A stretch of 39,062 bases of DNA from Erysipelotrichaceae bacterium (lineage in GTDB: Bacteria; Bacillota_I; Bacilli_A; Erysipelotrichales; Erysipelotrichaceae). The stretch covers positions 1-39,062 of the forward strand of contig JALENJ010000041.1 in the NCBI GenBank assembly GCA_022767445.1, given 5' to 3'. Within the stretch, counting starts at the first letter, position 1. Every line of letters begins with the position of its first letter. Made by a program: the position numbers and the translations under genes. The notes beneath the pieces were generated by a model. It had not been told where the DNA came from. It did not search any database and saw only the letters and a program-made list of their open reading frames with translations. Shown here piece after piece: positions 3,660 to 30,484 of the stretch.

Positions 3660-3666
3660 TATATTC

Positions 3667-3710
3667 AAAAAGAACCTTCGAGTTGATTTACAACAAAGAG
3701 GTTCTTTTTT
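3667..3710 (+). terminator. Terminator of lysozyme gene (abuts IS end)
   Basis: AAAAAGAACCT (3667-3677) pairs with AGGTTCTTTTT (3699-3709), ending in T6. The right arm runs into the conserved ISL3 terminal sequence, so the IS end may form part of the terminator. Confidence 0.75.
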
Positions 3711-3765
3711 AGGAAATTTAAAACAACTTAGGTGAGAAAAGGTAGAAATCATAGATGAAGTAAAG
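3705..3765. repeat. ISL3-type terminal sequence, copy 1
   Basis: Starts TTTTTTAGGAAATTTAAAAC and ends with TCATAGATGAAG. It is about 85% identical to 4309-4368. It holds the stop codon end of the transposase remnant, so it is the IS end just beyond the transposase gene. Confidence 0.75.
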
Positions 3766-3994
3766 CGAAACGAACCCCATTTTTGAAACCTTTGGTAATC
3801 CTCTTTACTTTGTTTTTAAACTTAGTTGCTGAGAATGAAGTGGGTTTGTTTAGCACAAACATTGCACGATTTCTAAATCTATCAAAGTTTTGATATCCGT
3901 TAGCTAGATTCAATATAATCTTGATATATTTGTTTCTACCTTCTATAGGTCCATTCGTAACTCTAGCCTCTATCTTTCTTCTTTTCCCAGATGA
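3749..3994 (-). pseudogene. ISL3-family transposase C-terminal remnant
   Basis: On the minus strand about 80 codons remain open, running from an in-frame stop at 3995-3997 to a natural TGA at 3749-3751. The product contains NGPIEGRNKYIKIILNLANG, then YQNFDRFRNRAMF, the typical C-terminal segment of ISL3 transposases around the last catalytic Glu (in NGPIEG). Everything N-terminal is missing. It is a decayed insertion sequence marking the left border of the RiPP-like island. Confidence 0.85.
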
Positions 3995-4139
3995 TTAAAC
4001 GTTAAAAACGAGTACTAATAAATGAAAATTTTTTCATAATAAAGTAAAATTCACAATAATAAATGATATAAATGTAAGAAATAATGTTTAATTGTAAATT
4101 AGCAAGTATTAAAATATAAGCAAGAAGGAGGAAACTAAC
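3995..4139. other. AT-rich leader region of the precursor peptide gene
   Basis: Very AT-rich, with a small palindrome ATGAAAA-TT-TTTTCAT at 4022-4037 and a possible -10 TATAAA at 4067-4072. No well-spaced -35 partner is visible. It must hold the promoter of the small gene that follows, but I cannot fix it. Confidence 0.35.
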
Positions 4140-4277
4140 ATGAGCAATTTAAATACCTCTCAAGATGAAGTAATTGAAGTGTTAGATACTTCAGATTTAG
4201 AAAATCTTGAGGCAACTAGTAAACCTGCTGGTTGTAGTTGTGGTGGTGCTGGTGCTAGTGTTAGTGTGGGAGTCTAA
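4140..4277 (+). CDS. RiPP-like precursor peptide, 45 aa
   Basis: A 45-codon gene with near-perfect AAGGAGG (4125-4131), 8 nt before the ATG, and a strong terminator 9 nt after its stop. Residues 8-25 are acidic and leader-like (EVIEVLDTSDLENLEA). The tail, about residues 28-45, is small and polar with two cysteines, C32 and C34, in GCSCGGAGAS followed by VSVGV. A leader/core split, a C-x-C pair and a run of Ala/Ser/Val acceptors resemble thioether-type (sactipeptide or ranthipeptide) precursors. A decayed radical-SAM gene and an ABC exporter follow. No homologue is recognised by name; a thiazole-type core cannot be excluded, but no cyclodehydratase is present. Confidence 0.75.
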   Translation: MSNLNTSQDEVIEVLDTSDLENLEATSKPAGCSCGGAGASVSVGV

Positions 4278-4285
4278 AAATCAGT

Positions 4286-4314
4286 AAAAAAGTAGGCACT
4301 ATGCCTACTTTTTT
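4286..4314 (+). terminator. Strong terminator after precursor gene
   Basis: A 13-bp perfect stem, AAAAAAGTAGGCA (4286-4298) with TGCCTACTTTTTT (4302-4314), and a 3-nt loop. It would cap the precursor as a short abundant mRNA, a frequent arrangement between RiPP precursor and maturase genes. Confidence 0.9.
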
Positions 4315-4368
4315 AGGTAATTTAAAAAACTTGGGGATAGAAAAGCTAGGAATCATAGATGAAGTTGT
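4309..4368. repeat. ISL3-type terminal sequence, copy 2
   Basis: Same orientation and about 85% identity to 3705-3765, including the final TCATAGATGAAG with the minus-strand TGA. Reading further into the element meets stops at once, so only the terminal 60 bp survive. The two IS ends bracket the precursor peptide gene. Confidence 0.75.
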
Positions 4369-4420
4369 GCATCAGACTACACACTTAGTTTGCTTTGTTA
4401 TATGAAAAATTAACTAAAGG

Positions 4421-4449
4421 TTTACTATATGAATAAATGTATTTATGCT
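4421..4449 (+). promoter_or_regulatory. Candidate promoter of the maturase/exporter unit
   Basis: TTTACT (4421-4426), a 17-bp spacer and TATGCT (4444-4449), just before AAAGGGGAGG (4452-4461) and the ATG of the maturase remnant at 4471. It may now drive the ABC exporter. Confidence 0.45.
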
Positions 4450-4470
4450 GCAAAGGGGAGGTTAGTAAAT

Positions 4471-4845
4471 ATGATTTATTATGATAATCTTTTCGATATA
4501 TAAAAAGTTAATGACTATTATATATTGTGTTTGATTAAAACAATTTTAAAAGAGATGGAATATTTAATGAATAAAATGTGGCTGAAAACAAATTGTTAAG
4601 TATTGGAAAGTCTAATTTAAGAGATTTTCTCGTATGGAATAAATTATTTTCTATACCAGAGAAGAACTGAATAATAAAAAATTGAAAAATATATAGTGTT
4701 TTACGATAGATAAGATTTACTAGTTGCATATGTGTATCTGACGCAACGATGTAATTTGAACTGCTATTATTGGTATAATCAAAAATTTTTAAATAATAAT
4801 AAAGCAGAATTAACAACTGACGAATGAAAATAAGAAATATAGAAG
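4471..4845 (+). pseudogene. Decayed radical-SAM peptide maturase, N-terminal third
   Basis: AAAGGGGAGG and an ATG at 4471 open a reading frame that stops after 10 codons but continues recognisably: MIYYDNLFDI, stop, KVNDYYILC. A middle piece is open in another frame (NKLLSIGKSNLRDFLVWNKL, 4587-4665). The original frame returns with VAYVYLTQRCNLNCYYWYNQ, ending in FLNNNKAELTTDE. This is the CxxxCxxC region of radical-SAM/SPASM maturases; codons 4750-4752 and 4762-4764 are Cys, but the third position, 4771-4773, is TGG (Trp) instead of Cys. The motif lies about 94 codons from the start, as expected for sactisynthase-type enzymes with an N-terminal precursor-binding domain. The remaining barrel and SPASM domain are deleted. 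The gene is non-functional. Confidence 0.8.
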
Positions 4846-4875
4846 AAAACAAAAAAATTATGGAGGTGAGTTTTT

Positions 4876-6468
4876 ATGAAATTGAAAAATGTGCTTCGGT
4901 TAATTAAGGATAACGGTAGATACGTTGGTATTATTACAATTCTTGTAATTATTCAAGCGTTATTAGCATTCGTATTACCAATTACAGTATCAAGGGCTAT
5001 TGACGGTGATTTAGAAATTAAAAAATATTTAATTATTTTTGTGATTATTGTTATTACATTGCTGATTAACCTCTTGATTATTCAGATTAAAAAAAGTGCG
5101 ATTATAAAATATAAGCAGAATATTAACATGGAGATTTTTAATGAATTGGCAATGGTAAAATACGAGAAATACAATGAGAAGGGTGCGGCTTATTATATCG
5201 AGCGAATCGGAACGGCGGTATATCAATTCGCGGATTTTATCCTTACAACAATCCCAAGTTATATTAAAACACTTTTAACGATTATTTTATGTTTAGTATT
5301 AATTGGTAAAGACAGTTTAATGCTAATTGGAATACTAGTACTATTATTAATCATTCAGTATAACGGATATAAGGTTTTAAACATTCAGCTTTCGAAAAAA
5401 AGTAAGATACTTCAAGATGTATGCGCTGCACGCTTTGCAGATAATATTTCTATTTTTAATAATGTCGAATTTGTTAAACAATATGGAAGCTCAAACAAAA
5501 TTCAAAGCCTACTAAATCAAAATGTATATGATATTCACCGCGTAACAACGGATATCAATACATATGCAGGGAATTTCTACTATGTATTAAATAGTATCAT
5601 TACAAATCTTCAGTATGTTATGTATTTGATATTAGCAATCCTTCTTGCAAATAAAAGTATAGATATGTCTATGTTTCTATTCGATATCATGATTATTGTT
5701 ATTTGTTTTGAGGCATTTAATGATTTGATGACATTAAATGTAAACATGAAGGATGTGAATGCCTCTTTTGAATTCTTGACAAATGATATCGAAAATAATT
5801 TGGAGAGAATGGGTGGTAATGATATTGATCACATTAGAAGCATTGATTTTAAAGGTACTACAATTCAATATAAAAAGAATATCCTAATACAAAATATAAA
5901 CATGACGATTAATCAAGGAGATATTCTATTTATTTCTGGAGAAACCGGAACTGGCAAGTCTAGCTTCGTAAAATCATTAATAGGTTTTGTGGATGCGGAT
6001 AATATTTTTTTCAATGGTATTGAGCAAAATGAGATTCTCTTATCTTCATTGCGAAAGAGAGTGGCATATATATCGCAAATGAATTCCATTTTTAATGGGA
6101 CGGTAAAAGATAATATTGAACTAAATACTAATGCAAATCAAGAGTACGAAAAAATGTCATTTTTTGGTAAATTTATTGATAAGGGAAACCTGAAACTTAC
6201 TTCAGATGGAACAAATCTATCGGGTGGTGATAAACAGAAAATTGTATTAGGAAGATTAATTTCTAATTGCAAAGATGTAGATGTTATTATCTTGGATGAA
6301 GTAACGAGCTCAATGGACGCTGATACAGAAACAAAAGCTTTTGATGAAATTCTGCCACTGTTAAAAAATAAAATAGTACTGATCATTTCGCATAACAAAA
6401 ATCTTCAACGTTATGCAAATAGAATTGTAGAATTAAAAGATAAGACTATGATTGACATTTCAAAATAG
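4876..6468 (+). CDS. ABC exporter, fused membrane and ATPase domains
   Basis: A 530-aa half-transporter of the ABC exporter (MsbA/LanT-like) type. Residues 1-300 hold about six hydrophobic helices. The ATPase has Walker A GETGTGKSS (355-363), a Q-loop (AYISQM), signature LSGGDKQK (448-455), Walker B VIILDE (470-475) and an H-loop (IISHN). There is no N-terminal C39 peptidase domain, so it would export a mature peptide or act in self-protection rather than cleave a double-Gly leader. The start ATG 4876 follows GGAGG at 4862-4866. It is the only long intact gene of the RiPP-like island and is very AT-rich. The substrate is inferred from context only. Confidence 0.85.
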   Translation: MKLKNVLRLIKDNGRYVGIITILVIIQALLAFVLPITVSRAIDGDLEIKKYLIIFVIIVITLLINLLIIQIKKSAIIKYKQNINMEIFNELAMVKYEKYNEKGAAYYIERIGTAVYQFADFILTTIPSYIKTLLTIILCLVLIGKDSLMLIGILVLLLIIQYNGYKVLNIQLSKKSKILQDVCAARFADNISIFNNVEFVKQYGSSNKIQSLLNQNVYDIHRVTTDINTYAGNFYYVLNSIITNLQYVMYLILAILLANKSIDMSMFLFDIMIIVICFEAFNDLMTLNVNMKDVNASFEFLTNDIENNLERMGGNDIDHIRSIDFKGTTIQYKKNILIQNINMTINQGDILFISGETGTGKSSFVKSLIGFVDADNIFFNGIEQNEILLSSLRKRVAYISQMNSIFNGTVKDNIELNTNANQEYEKMSFFGKFIDKGNLKLTSDGTNLSGGDKQKIVLGRLISNCKDVDVIILDEVTSSMDADTETKAFDEILPLLKNKIVLIISHNKNLQRYANRIVELKDKTMIDISK

Positions 6469-6768
6469 ATCGAAGTAGTTATGTTTCAACTTAAATGCAA
6501 CAGTATATTGTATATGGCGAGTTTACAAAGGAAATGAAAAGAGATCCTGGTTACGATTGGATACAGTGAGTAGAAAGTAGGCATATATAGTATTACAAGG
6601 AGTAAGCTAAAATCATTATTCATATCGATTTATTTCTTGTTAAAGCAAATTGAGTATTGAGATTGTTTAGCGTATGGATCACTATAAGCGTGGTATTCGA
6701 GGAGATCCAATGCAACTACATCTTTTGTTCTTAATCAGAATTCATAAAGATAATCATTAAATGAGTTG
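6469..6768. other. Degenerate gap without a recognisable gene
   Basis: About 300 bp between the exporter and the next hairpin. All six frames are broken by stops. Short stretches such as EFTKEMKRDPGYDWIQ (plus frame) look like decayed coding sequence, but I cannot assign a family. No clear promoter or RNA structure was seen. Confidence 0.4.
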
Positions 6769-6802
6769 AGTAGACCTCTAAGTTGAATCTTAGAGGTCTA
6801 CT
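6769..6802. terminator. 14-bp hairpin, terminator-like without T-run
   Basis: AGTAGACCTCTAAG (6769-6782) and CTTAGAGGTCTACT (6789-6802) pair perfectly around TTGAAT. No U-tract follows on either strand, so it may be a degenerate terminator or a processing/protective hairpin. Confidence 0.5.
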
Positions 6803-6836
6803 TCGTTATGTGGGTATCCATTTTCATAGTGCAAAA

Positions 6837-6845
6837 TGCTATAAT
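6837..6845 (+). promoter_or_regulatory. Extended -10 promoter of phosphoesterase gene
   Basis: TGCTATAAT at 6837-6845 is a perfect extended -10. A weak TATCCA or TTTTCA lies upstream as a poor -35. Transcription should start near 6852, just before AAAGGAG at 6857-6863. Confidence 0.65.
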
Positions 6846-6869
6846 CTAGAAGTGTGAAAGGAGTAGTGC

Positions 6870-22943: not shown

Positions 22944-25557
22944 ATGAGAAAGATAATAAAGATATTAGATAACAAATTAGAGAATCACATCTTACCATTC
23001 TTCTGGCAACATGGAGAAGATGAGAAGACCTTACGTGAATACATGAAGATCATCGACGAAAGTAACTGTCATGCGGTATGTATTGAGGCTAGACCACATC
23101 CTGACTTCTGTGGTGATAAATGGTGGTAGGATATGGATATCATTTTAGATGAAGCTAGAAAACGTGATATGAAAGTCTGGATACTCGATGACTCTCACTT
23201 TCCAAGCGGATATGCGAACGGTGCACTCAAGAATAAACCAAACACACTACGTAGACAAAGTATCTATACAAAGAAGATCCCTGTACATGCAGGTAAGAAG
23301 GTTTCGGTAGATATACGCAAGATATGCAAGAAACTTCCAACCTCAATGATGTGGGAGATTGTTAAACGGCAGATGAATAAAGGGGCAGATATCTTCGATG
23401 ATGATACCGTACTAGATGTATCCGTACATGTAAAAGGTGAAGACAAACCTATCTCCATCCCATATCATTTGCAAGGAAATAAACTATCCGTACAGATACC
23501 CGCTAATGCGGATATGTTGTATATCACAATCCTAACAAGAAATGCAGGTATCCATCGTGATTATATGAATATGATGGATGAAGAATCATGCAAGGTGTTA
23601 ATCGATACTGTATATGAAGCACATTATGCTCATTGCAAAGATGACTTTGACAAGACAATCCAAGGATTCTTTTCCGATGAACCAGAGCTAGGTAATGACT
23701 TTGATATACCATGGAGTAGAGACTTACAACAAGAAATGGAAGCTACCTTTGGTGATGATTGGAAGTTATATATGCCTATGTTGTTTGATAATCATTGTGA
23801 TGATAAACAAGTCGCTTATACAAGAGTCAAGTTTATGGATTCAGTTACCAAACTTGTAAAGAAATGTTTCTCTGAACAAATAGGCAACTGGTGCCAACAA
23901 CATGGCGTTTCCTATATTGGACATGTTATTGAAGATAACAACCAACATTGTCGAACAGGCTCAAGCTTAGGGCATTACTTTAGAGGACTTGCCGGACAAC
24001 ACATGGCAGGTATCGATGATTTCGATGGATAAGTAATTCCATTTAAGGAAGATGCACCAGCGGAGGATATCTTTAAGTGGATAGTGGTAGAGATGGAGAG
24101 TTCTACCATTACTGTTTAGGCGCATCTTTAGCTGCAATCGATCCAAAGAAAGAAGGCAGATGTATGTGTGAAATCTTTGGAAACTACGGTTGGTCAGAAG
24201 GCCCACGCCTAGAAAAATATCTTGCAGATCACTTTATGGTACAGGGCATCAATCACTTTGTACCACATGCATTCTTACCAAAAGCCTACCCAGATCCTGA
24301 TTGTTTTCCACACTTCTATGCTGGTGGACACAATCCACAATACAAAGCTTTTAGCCAAGTCATCTTATACATGAATCGTATCTGTAATCTGATCTTTGAT
24401 GGTAAAGCTGTATGTCATACAGCAGTGCTCTATCAAGCAGAACAAGAATGGATGGGTGAGTGTATGTTGAATCAAAAGATTCTACGTACACTCATGGAGA
24501 ATCAGATTACAGCACACATCATCCCGGAAGACGTATTTGATGATAACAACGAGTATCATACAAAATATGAAGAAGGAATACTCGTTGTAAACAACAACTA
24601 TTACAAAGAAATATATCATCCTCAAAATATATAACAGAAACACTCGCAAAGAATATCATCGAAATGACTAACCATGGTATTCATGTATATTTTGTGGATG
24701 GATATCCACAAGCAATTATTGGTGATGATGTACAAGGGTTATTAGAACAGGTCACAAGTAATTGTGAATGCATATCATTATCACATGTATCAAAACATGC
24801 ATGCAAGGATATTGTATTAGAAGCACACAACCATGGTATACGTGTATTCCATTACAAAGCTGATGAAGAAATATTATACTTCGTAAATGAAAGCAGAGAT
24901 TCATTCCAATCACAAGTGATGATTGATGGTGAAATGGATCTTGTTGGATATGATGCTTGGAATAACAAATTGATCACTGTGCCATACCATAAAGAAGGTG
25001 GTAAGATGATCTTTACATTATCGTTAAATTCTTGTCAGAGTATCATCTTGATTTGAAATGATGACTTATCTTTACAAGGTGAAACAATTCCAACTTCAGT
25101 CTTGAATGAAATCAATTTAACGGATAGTACAAAAATGTGGAAAGTCTCTTCCTGTAAAGCAATTGATTATCCAAGATTTACACAGGAAGAGATTACAAAT
25201 AACCTACAACCATTCAGTGATAAACATAAGACTTTCTCTGGACATATTGCCTATACAACAGATGTGGATATCCCAACAGAGTGGATTGAGGCTGTCAATC
25301 GAGGAAAGAAAGTCTATGTGAATATCGAAAATGCTGGAGAGGATGTAGAACTATTCTGGAATGGACAAAGTCTAGGTATACAGGTTCTAGCTCCGTTTAG
25401 CTTTGATGTAACAAGGTACTTATCTAAAGTTAAAAATAGTTTATATATAGAGGTAGCGTCGAGTCTTGAACGTGAGCGCAAGGTAAATAAGAAATCACAC
25501 GAGAAGACAGGAATTACAGGTAATGTGGTTGTTCAATTGATGTCTGAACCGATGTAA
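22944..25557 (+). pseudogene. Glycoside hydrolase pseudogene (GH106-like)
   Basis: One long glycoside-hydrolase gene broken by four lesions. An amber codon lies at 23127-23129 (KWW, stop, DMDIILDEA, no frame change). A frameshift at about 24030-24077 joins AGIDDFDG to DGEFYHYCLG. A second frameshift lies at about 24610-24634, after which SKYITETLAKNIIEMTNHG continues. A TGA lies at 25054-25056 in frame. The pieces together give about 860 codons: HILPFFWQHGEDEKTLREYM and VWILDDSHFPSGYANG near the start, EIFGNYGWSEGPRLEKYLAD and NHFVPHAFLPKAYPDPDC in the middle, and a beta-sandwich tail. This resembles the uncharacterised GH106-like hydrolases of gut Firmicutes that attack rhamnose- or uronate-containing glycans. 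The lesions look recent because the rest is well conserved. No good ribosome site is visible. Confidence 0.88.
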
Positions 25558-26173: not shown

Positions 26174-26250
26174 ACAACACAATCATAGAAATGTGTTGAT
26201 TTGTTATTTTATATTTATGTATGCATGGTTACGTGGTATGATTGTGTTGT
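26174..26250. promoter_or_regulatory. Inverted 14-bp element shared by two divergent promoters
   Basis: ACAACACAATCATA (26174-26187) and TATGATTGTGTTGT (26237-26250) are perfect inverted copies 49 bp apart. On the plus strand TGGTATGAT (26234-26242) is an extended -10 for the TPP-riboswitch transcript. On the minus strand the other copy gives TATGAT for the 67-aa gene. Confidence 0.6.
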
Positions 26251-26321
26251 GAACAGGGGTGCATATTTGCTGAGAAAAACCCTTATCACCTGATCTAGGT
26301 AAAGCTAGCGTAGGGAGTTCA
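26250..26321 (+). promoter_or_regulatory. TPP riboswitch (THI element)
   Basis: Conserved thi-box order: P1 TGAAC (26250-26254), GGGGTGC, the pyrimidine-sensor loop GCTGAGA (26269-26275), ACCCTTATCACCTGAT, GCTAGCGTAGGGA and P1' GTTCA (26317-26321). It binds thiamine pyrophosphate and controls the thiamine transporter gene directly downstream. Confidence 0.93.
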
Positions 26322-26358
26322 GTCTTTTTAATTCCTTACGCCTTCAAAATGGAGGTGT
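26308..26358 (+). promoter_or_regulatory. Riboswitch expression platform (translation type)
   Basis: GCGTAGGGA (26308-26316) can pair with TTCCTTACGC (26332-26341). The overlapping alternative ACGCCTTC (26338-26345) pairs with GGAGGTGT (26351-26358), hiding the thiT ribosome site. There is no T-run, so control should act on translation. Confidence 0.6.
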
Positions 26359-26366
26359 ATTTTTTT

Positions 26367-27071
26367 ATGAAGAATGGTCAGATTCAAAAGATTGCGTATA
26401 TGGCAATCTATATGGCACTGTATGTTGTGCTAAAGATGGTAGGTAACTTAATACCTATCCTACAGATGCCAAATGGAGGTTCTATTGAGTTGGAGTTAAT
26501 TCCTTTGATGATTGCCTCGTATCACCTTGGTTGGAAGTATGGAGCACTGTGTGGTTTAGCTTCCTTTGTACTAACAATCGCATTAGGATTTCCGGTGTAT
26601 TTTGTTCATCCAATACAGATTGTTTTGGACTATGTACTACCTATCTGTAGTGTAGGAATGGTTTCTTTGTTTAAACCATTTATCCATGCAAGTAAGTCTG
26701 TCGTTGTTGGTGTATTAACTGTGATTGGATTATGTGCTGGATATGCAGTGTATGTATCCTATGGCAAGAATATACAATCGATTCTCATTGCGATTGGACT
26801 AGTTGTTGTACTTGTGTTACTTGGAATTTTCTTAACAAGTACAAAAGAACACTTTGGTATTGTTGTAGTGATGGTAATTAAGTATCTATCCACTGTATTA
26901 TCAGGTGCTTACTTTTGGGCGGATGGAGTCGCTGCAGGAAGTCTTCCGGCTTGGACTTTCTCTTTGACATATAATTTATGGTATAACTTGGTAACGATGA
27001 TGATATGTCTAGTCGTTGTACCTATTCTAATGAGTCGTATTCATATGGCAGGTATTCGGGTATTGCATTAG
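26367..27071 (+). CDS. thiT: Thiamine ECF transporter S-component
   Basis: 234 aa, hydrophobic throughout. The thiamine-binding family motif region reads GGSIELELIPLMIASYHLGW then KYGALCGLASFVLTIALG, and HPIQIVLDYVLP; the C-terminus keeps YFWADGVAAG and SLTYNLWYNL. Together with a shared EcfAA'T module (not in this window) it imports thiamine. It is about 40 residues longer than usual ThiT because of an extra hydrophobic stretch at about 120-160. ATG 26367 is chosen because GGAGG (26351-26355) fits it; an in-frame ATG at 26349 overlaps that site. TPP-riboswitch controlled. Confidence 0.92.
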   Translation: MKNGQIQKIAYMAIYMALYVVLKMVGNLIPILQMPNGGSIELELIPLMIASYHLGWKYGALCGLASFVLTIALGFPVYFVHPIQIVLDYVLPICSVGMVSLFKPFIHASKSVVVGVLTVIGLCAGYAVYVSYGKNIQSILIAIGLVVVLVLLGIFLTSTKEHFGIVVVMVIKYLSTVLSGAYFWADGVAAGSLPAWTFSLTYNLWYNLVTMMICLVVVPILMSRIHMAGIRVLH

Positions 27072-29372: not shown

Positions 29373-29873
29373 ATGCAATCTAATAAATCTAAGCTGTTTA
29401 ATCTACGGCTAATAATGATTATTTTTTCTTTCTTATTTTGTTGTGCTGGCTGTAATCTTATCAAACATCCAGAATATCAATCATTTACTAATGTAGAATT
29501 TGTACCTGATTTCAGTTTAAAGGCTGATGAGCACTACTATTCCAGATTGAAAACAGATGAAAATATATTGCTTTTTTGGTCTGCTTCTTGTCTGCATTGT
29601 GAGAATGTAATCGCATATATTATGCAAGATGAAAATTCAATTCTAAGAAACTCACTATTCACTGTTTCTATTGATCCGGATATAGAAGATGTAATAGAAA
29701 ATTCTAAAAAATTCCCTATTTATCTCGATTATAAATTTGAGATTTTTAAATCAATGGAGTTTGAATATATTCCTGTTGTATTAATTGTTGATAGGAATGG
29801 TAAAATTATTGGATCGGCACAAGGCGAGAAGAATTGTATATCATTATTGGATAGTTATAAATTATATCACTAA
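29373..29873 (+). CDS. TlpA/thioredoxin-like lipoprotein
   Basis: 166 aa. A basic start and hydrophobic helix (about 11-23) end in CCAGC, a lipobox-like site with C27 as probable lipidated residue. The thioredoxin fold follows: NILLFWSASCLHCENVIAYI holds the redox pair C73-x-x-C76, FTVSIDPDIEDVIENSKKF is the middle, and EYIPVVLIVDRNGKIIGSAQ has the cis-proline and TlpA-type beta-hairpin. It should sit outside the membrane and make or reduce disulfides. It is 29 bp ahead of a secreted four-cysteine peptide, the obvious client. The start ATG 29373 has only a loosely placed GAGGTG. Confidence 0.82.
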   Translation: MQSNKSKLFNLRLIMIIFSFLFCCAGCNLIKHPEYQSFTNVEFVPDFSLKADEHYYSRLKTDENILLFWSASCLHCENVIAYIMQDENSILRNSLFTVSIDPDIEDVIENSKKFPIYLDYKFEIFKSMEFEYIPVVLIVDRNGKIIGSAQGEKNCISLLDSYKLYH

Positions 29874-29902
29874 TCTTTTTACATTAATTTATGGAGGAAA
29901 TA

Positions 29903-30307
29903 ATGAAAAAATTACTTACTATATTGTTAATTTCTTTTATGGTATTATGTGCCGTAAATACAAATGTTTATGCTGAAACTTTTACGGAAATCTCAGACTT
30001 AAATGAATATGAAGTATACGTTGATGCAAATTATGATGAGTACAGAAAAAATAACTATGAACTGCTTAGAGATCGTGGACGCTGCACGGATCGGTTTTCT
30101 TGGGAATGGTGCGTTGCTCATGGATATTCAAATAACCGTCCGGTAGGTAGCTCTGTAAGATTAACCAAGAGAGAGCTGGATTGTGTTATAAAGACTTATG
30201 GTTCTTTAGCTGAAGGAGTAATAGCTGGCGCTCTAACTCCAGCTGGAATCGGAATTTACTATGCTGCTGCTCAAGCAGCGTATAGATTTTGGACGTGCTT
30301 ATATTAG
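29903..30307 (+). CDS. Secreted four-cysteine peptide, putative bacteriocin
   Basis: 134 aa. A clear signal peptide (KKLLTILLISFMVLC..NVYA) would be cut after A24. The mature part has an acidic N-terminal half, cysteines C61 and C70 in CTDRFSWEWC, C94 and C132, and a hydrophobic Gly/Ala-rich tail (GSLAEGVIAGALTPAGIGIY then YAAAQAAYRFWTCLY). Four cysteines allow two disulfides. The hydrophobic tail is like membrane-active bacteriocins, and the gene sits between a thioredoxin-like lipoprotein and a tiny two-helix protein. No known bacteriocin family is recognised. GGAGG at 29894-29898 selects ATG 29903 over an in-frame ATG at 29891. Confidence 0.75.
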   Translation: MKKLLTILLISFMVLCAVNTNVYAETFTEISDLNEYEVYVDANYDEYRKNNYELLRDRGRCTDRFSWEWCVAHGYSNNRPVGSSVRLTKRELDCVIKTYGSLAEGVIAGALTPAGIGIYYAAAQAAYRFWTCLY

Positions 30308-30310
30308 GTT

Positions 30311-30484
30311 ATGAAAACAAATTATCTAGCCGGCAAAATTTTTATAGTAATATTAATCATTACAACCATTTTACTAGTCATGGATGTAATAGATTACAAT
30401 ACTGATTTTTTGATTACATCAGTATCTACTATTTTTGTCATATTTCTTCATATATGGCTTAATCGATTAACAAAAAAACAATAG
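30311..30484 (+). CDS. 57-aa two-helix membrane protein, putative immunity
   Basis: 57 aa, missed by length filters. Two hydrophobic helices (IFIVILIITTILLV at about 10-23 and FLITSVSTIFVIFLHIWL at about 33-50) with a short acidic turn (MDVIDYNTD) and a basic tail (NRLTKKQ). It starts 3 bases after the peptide stop, so it is translationally coupled and has no separate ribosome site. Tiny two-TM proteins directly after bacteriocin genes are often immunity proteins. The role is inferred from position only. Confidence 0.7.
   Translation: MKTNYLAGKIFIVILIITTILLVMDVIDYNTDFLITSVSTIFVIFLHIWLNRLTKKQ

Follow-up and report, generated by a model that had tools for sequence, protein, structure and literature searches.

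An AT-rich insertion of 3.2 kb lies between the genes for a lysozyme-domain protein and a 5′-nucleotidase in the window, the term used here for the whole stretch of 39,062 nucleotides that was analyzed (Table 1). The GC content of the insertion is 0.289 compared with 0.370 in the rest. In the closest relative compared (G014), whose 5′-nucleotidase is 69% identical to that of the window, the flanking genes are only 87 bp apart and the insertion is absent. The insertion is foreign and was probably acquired horizontally. It holds a small peptide gene, a broken frame of a radical-SAM enzyme and an intact ABC exporter gene, all on the same strand, together with the debris of an ISL3-family transposase. 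Two 58-nt element ends in direct orientation, the first at 3704–3761, enclose the peptide gene, and the radical-SAM remnant and the exporter gene are found outside the second end. Part of this element-end or insertion sequence is also present on two other contigs of the same genome (C37 and C51).

Table 1. Features of the insertion and their positions in the window
Feature	Position	Strand	Remarks
AT-rich insertion	3660–6869	.	Between the genes for the lysozyme-domain protein and the 5′-nucleotidase
ISL3-family transposase remnant (C-terminal part) and element end	3704–4010	−	PF01610, E 3e-6
Ribosome-binding site AAGGAGG	4125–4131	+	8 nt before the ATG; read from the sequence
45-aa RiPP-like precursor gene	4140–4277	+	Acidic leader, approximately residues 1–30; core GCSCGGAGASVSVGV
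Intrinsic terminator, hairpin and T run	4285–4315	+	Fold computed
58-nt element end, second copy	4308–4365	+	83% identical to 3704–3761; directly after the peptide terminator
Decayed radical-SAM maturase gene	4471–4830	+	Stops, frame changes, C-terminal part deleted; start and extent outside 4717–4824 putative
ABC half-transporter, intact, 530 aa	4876–6468	+	Six predicted TM segments, Walker A, signature, Walker B

The peptide gene has 45 codons, which translate as MSNLNTSQDEVIEVLDTSDLENLEATSKPAGCSCGGAGASVSVGV, and is present as a single copy in its own genome. The hairpin downstream of the stop codon, with a T run at its end, folds with −16.7 kcal/mol (z-score −4.6). A scan of the window for a strong ribosome site, a frame of 25–75 codons and a terminator recovered this one gene, and the same combination of signals was seen in none of 40 first-order Markov random windows. 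GC by codon position in the frame is 0.53/0.49/0.16. Codon usage is not decisive: the frame scores +9 bits (−3.3 for synonymous choice alone) and one antisense frame scores +13, so that the two are not separated. The 45-residue frame is a real gene, and the original prediction of a small gene with a near-ideal ribosome site and a strong terminator is borne out. It is highly improbable that ribosome site, open frame and terminator have come together by chance in mobile-element debris; the lack of a homologue in any collection searched and the indecisive codon usage would fit such a coincidence, but the random windows, the z-score of the terminator and the GC content by codon position all oppose it. 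The predicted division into an acidic, leader-like half and a Gly/Ala/Ser/Val tail is also evident. Residues 1–30 carry a net charge of −6.5, and the last 15 residues, GCSCGGAGASVSVGV, contain both Cys residues of the peptide and end in the hydrophobic tail.

Searches of 272 genomes of the family, 395 genomes sampled from the class and 43 genomes of a neighboring family, sets that overlap, turned up no credible homologue of the peptide. Plasmids, phages and viral contigs gave none either, the viral contigs having been searched with a 54-codon frame in place of the 45-aa peptide, and there was no match to the peptide in Pfam, NCBIfam, PHROGs or the PDB. Since the class was sampled and not searched exhaustively, the absence of homologues is provisional. 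The best matches of the precursor searches in the family, the class and the neighboring family (E 0.03–0.5) are chance alignments, many of them inside larger frames, and a precursor-like match at locus L027 (VIQVSDLSD...GGCPCGG) was rejected as an out-of-frame reading of another gene. The check proposed earlier, a search for intact homologues beside radical-SAM genes, thus returned nothing from these genomes, plasmids, phages and viral contigs.

Radical-SAM genes that resemble the remnant at this locus (L047, L048 and the WgkB-like gene of L072) belong to unrelated clusters, none with a related precursor. Two of these clusters can be described in their own right. The one at L047 comes from a different genome of the class (G378): a gene for a 107-aa Cys-rich peptide (1878–2201) stands directly before the radical-SAM gene (955–1875); the peptide is a candidate multi-thioether RiPP. 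The cluster at L072 (4105–9881, genome G141) is tryglysin/Wgk-like and comes from outside the streptococci; its radical-SAM gene is WgkB-like (NF050035, E 1.2e-94) and is accompanied by genes for a PqqD-like protein, an M3-like peptidase, an ABC transporter and an HTH regulator.

The broken radical-SAM frame came to light when the 600 bases that separate the peptide gene from the next large gene were read in all six frames. Its best-preserved piece, at 4717–4824, encodes 36 residues, LLVAYVYLTQRCNLNCYYWYNQKFLNNNKAELTTDE (LTQRCNLNCYYW). All 15 NCBIfam matches of this piece are to radical-SAM families and cover the CxxxCxxC region. The best is to PqqE, with an E-value no better than 0.0026, and others are to geopeptide, nif11-like, PapB and YhhB RiPP maturases. 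The reversed and two scrambled versions of the piece gave no radical-SAM match in NCBIfam, and a Pfam search with the 36 residues did not recognize them. The position of the third cluster Cys is occupied by Trp (4771–4773), and the frame is broken before and after the piece. The remainder of an enzyme of the usual size is absent, as the exporter gene already begins at 4876. A start of the original maturase at 4471, with a ribosome site of its own, is plausible. In the cluster, a functional SPASM/twitch maturase was not found, only this broken N-terminal part devoid of the third cluster Cys. To judge from these defects, the maturase gene in this genome is a pseudogene, which would leave the peptide an orphan at present.

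The exporter has no C39 peptidase among its listed Pfam matches. No relatives of it were recovered from the family (E<1e-40) or from the order (E<1e-35). A contig search of other genomes based on the exporter gave three loci with 24%–26% identity; the one inspected, L032, was rejected as a related cluster because it has no radical-SAM cluster. A plasmid ABC transporter with 31% identity was likewise rejected as part of a related cassette, there being no radical-SAM gene beside it.

The peptide might still be modified in trans, in a live system, by a radical-SAM enzyme or one of another class encoded elsewhere. The precursor and exporter genes are intact, and with the genome 97% complete in 74 contigs, the gene for such an enzyme may be missing from the assembly. 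This is nevertheless very unlikely, as no second copy of the motif of the remnant was found in the genome and its sole SPASM match, a 106-aa fragment on contig C1, falls below the cut-off; no match exceeds the cut-off, and the 97%-complete genome yielded no intact SPASM maturase. The fragment matches ryptide-class radical-SAM/SPASM maturases over their C-terminal 100 residues (NF040899, E 1.8e-23). Its frame (C1:3148–3351 of G000; 1492–1812 in locus L085) has a good ribosome site, lies downstream of htpG and is followed by a frame for an MFS-like transporter; judged by its match, it would give this genome a second broken RiPP maturase. It was also considered as the missing half of the gene at 4471–4830 and rejected. 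The ryptide maturase model, its best match, is not matched by the N-terminal remnant, so that the fragment is more likely a separate relic.

Other features were noted elsewhere in the window. At 29373–30484, a gene for a thioredoxin-like lipoprotein (29373–29873) is followed by one for a secreted protein of 138 aa that contains Cys and has a hydrophobic C terminus (SLAEGVIAGALTPAGIGIYYAAAQAAYRFWTCLY) and then by one for a 57-aa membrane peptide (30311–30484), a possible set of bacteriocin, redox helper and immunity protein. Four consecutive frames at 23133–25557 resemble a single broken glycoside hydrolase gene, with Glyco_hydro_2_N in the last piece. A TPP riboswitch (RF00059, 72.7 bits) at 26245–26333 precedes a membrane protein gene (26349–27071) that probably encodes a thiamine transporter.

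The arrangement within the insertion suggests that a radical-SAM RiPP cassette, probably with the frame at 4140–4277 as its precursor gene, was gained by horizontal transfer and then disrupted by insertion elements and deleted in part. Evidence for this comes from the strong signals of the peptide gene, from the 15 radical-SAM matches of the remnant between it and the exporter gene, from the intact state of the exporter gene on the same strand, from the location of all three within one AT-rich insertion that the closest relative lacks, and from the precursor-like anatomy of the peptide, an acidic leader and a Cys-containing, Gly-rich C terminus. Against it stand the lack of any homologous precursor or intact cluster in the genomes searched, the best NCBIfam E-value of 0.0026 for the remnant, which Pfam did not recognize, and the failure of codon usage to separate the peptide frame from one antisense frame. 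The transposase remnant and the repeated element ends account for the decay of the cassette, and since both ends follow terminators, they fit a later insertion of the elements. The second end separates the peptide gene from the radical-SAM remnant, so the two may also have arrived separately. The peptide gene would then belong to a different cassette and encode an unmodified small peptide, such as an export-dependent signal or a small bacteriocin, lying between element ends beside accidental neighbors. The element ends on both sides of the gene (3704–3761 and 4308–4365), the lack of a matching RiPP precursor model and the intact state of the peptide frame while the radical-SAM gene has decayed are all consistent with such an origin. 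It is judged unlikely, as the flank of the peptide gene, the remnant and the exporter gene are AT-rich alike and share one insertion, the directly oriented ends after terminators look like later arrivals, and a leader with a CSC core would be unusual for an unmodified peptide.

A single decayed cassette would have worked as follows. Precursor, radical-SAM maturase and ABC exporter would have been gained together by horizontal transfer. In this scheme the peptide would be the substrate of the maturase: its acidic leader would have drawn in the enzyme, which would have introduced cross-links, perhaps thioethers, into the Gly-rich core CSCGGAGASVSVGV. A protease would then have taken off the leader, and the half-transporter would have exported the product, probably a bacteriocin or a signal. 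Insertion elements would later have struck the cassette, with partial deletion. In its present state it would retain precursor and exporter beside a maturase pseudogene, and the peptide, if made, would stay unmodified unless an unseen enzyme serves it. The original prediction had called the peptide an orphan and paired it with radical-SAM enzymes. The first holds as far as homologues are concerned but had overlooked the radical-SAM frame and the ABC exporter gene adjoining the peptide gene. The pairing gains from that same frame and exporter, located in one insertion downstream of a peptide with leader and core, but the enzyme is broken. Assignment to the RiPP class is therefore more likely than from the peptide sequence alone, and the claim of a working system at this locus is removed.

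Among known radical-SAM RiPPs, the peptide can be compared with streptosactin of the streptococcal GGG subfamily (GggA/GggB), through its published description. Both have a short, Gly-rich core of approximately 14 residues with two Cys, and a radical-SAM gene, here a remnant, beside the precursor. Streptosactin is linked between Cys25 and Ser28 and between Cys31 and Gly34 (PMC8172795); possible acceptors with the same spacing, three positions after each Cys, exist here (C32–G35 and C34–A37). By analogy, a modified core could have small, streptosactin-like rings, although the CSC spacing would make them overlap. The present locus differs in its ABC exporter and broken maturase and in that no Rgg/SHP regulator or protease gene was seen, and no homology was detected with NCBIfam and Pfam at permissive thresholds. 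The streptococcal CGG, VSA and CGx subfamilies of radical-SAM RiPPs are uncharacterized in function (PMC13361665). The hairpin sactipeptides subtilosin A, thurincin H and thuricin CD similarly place Cys close to the N terminus of the core with possible acceptors further on, and a maturase (here the remnant) and an ABC exporter nearby, but the core of the present peptide, with its two Cys, is far shorter and no family model matches it. As in the SCIFF peptides and ranthipeptides (Tte1186, PapB type), a small precursor adjoins a radical-SAM gene, and the remnant weakly matches PapB. SCIFF peptides contain approximately six Cys within their last 45 residues (PMC8172795), whereas the present peptide has two, which sets it apart from them.

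The suggestion of a new RiPP family is not supported, as it depends on a single orphan sequence. Such a family would be defined by several independent homologues that adjoin a common type of enzyme, and none were found in the genomes, plasmids, phages and viral contigs searched. That an undescribed radical-SAM RiPP family with a CSCGG-Ala/Ser/Val core has intact clusters in unsampled low-GC bacteria, the peptide being its first known member, is unlikely. The locus is at present a lead, not a new family. What had been a lone small frame becomes a readable case of the decay of a RiPP cassette, in which the enzyme is lost but not the precursor or the exporter. Should intact relatives be found, the short CSC core would add to the radical-SAM RiPPs a compact scaffold, similar to streptosactin in size.
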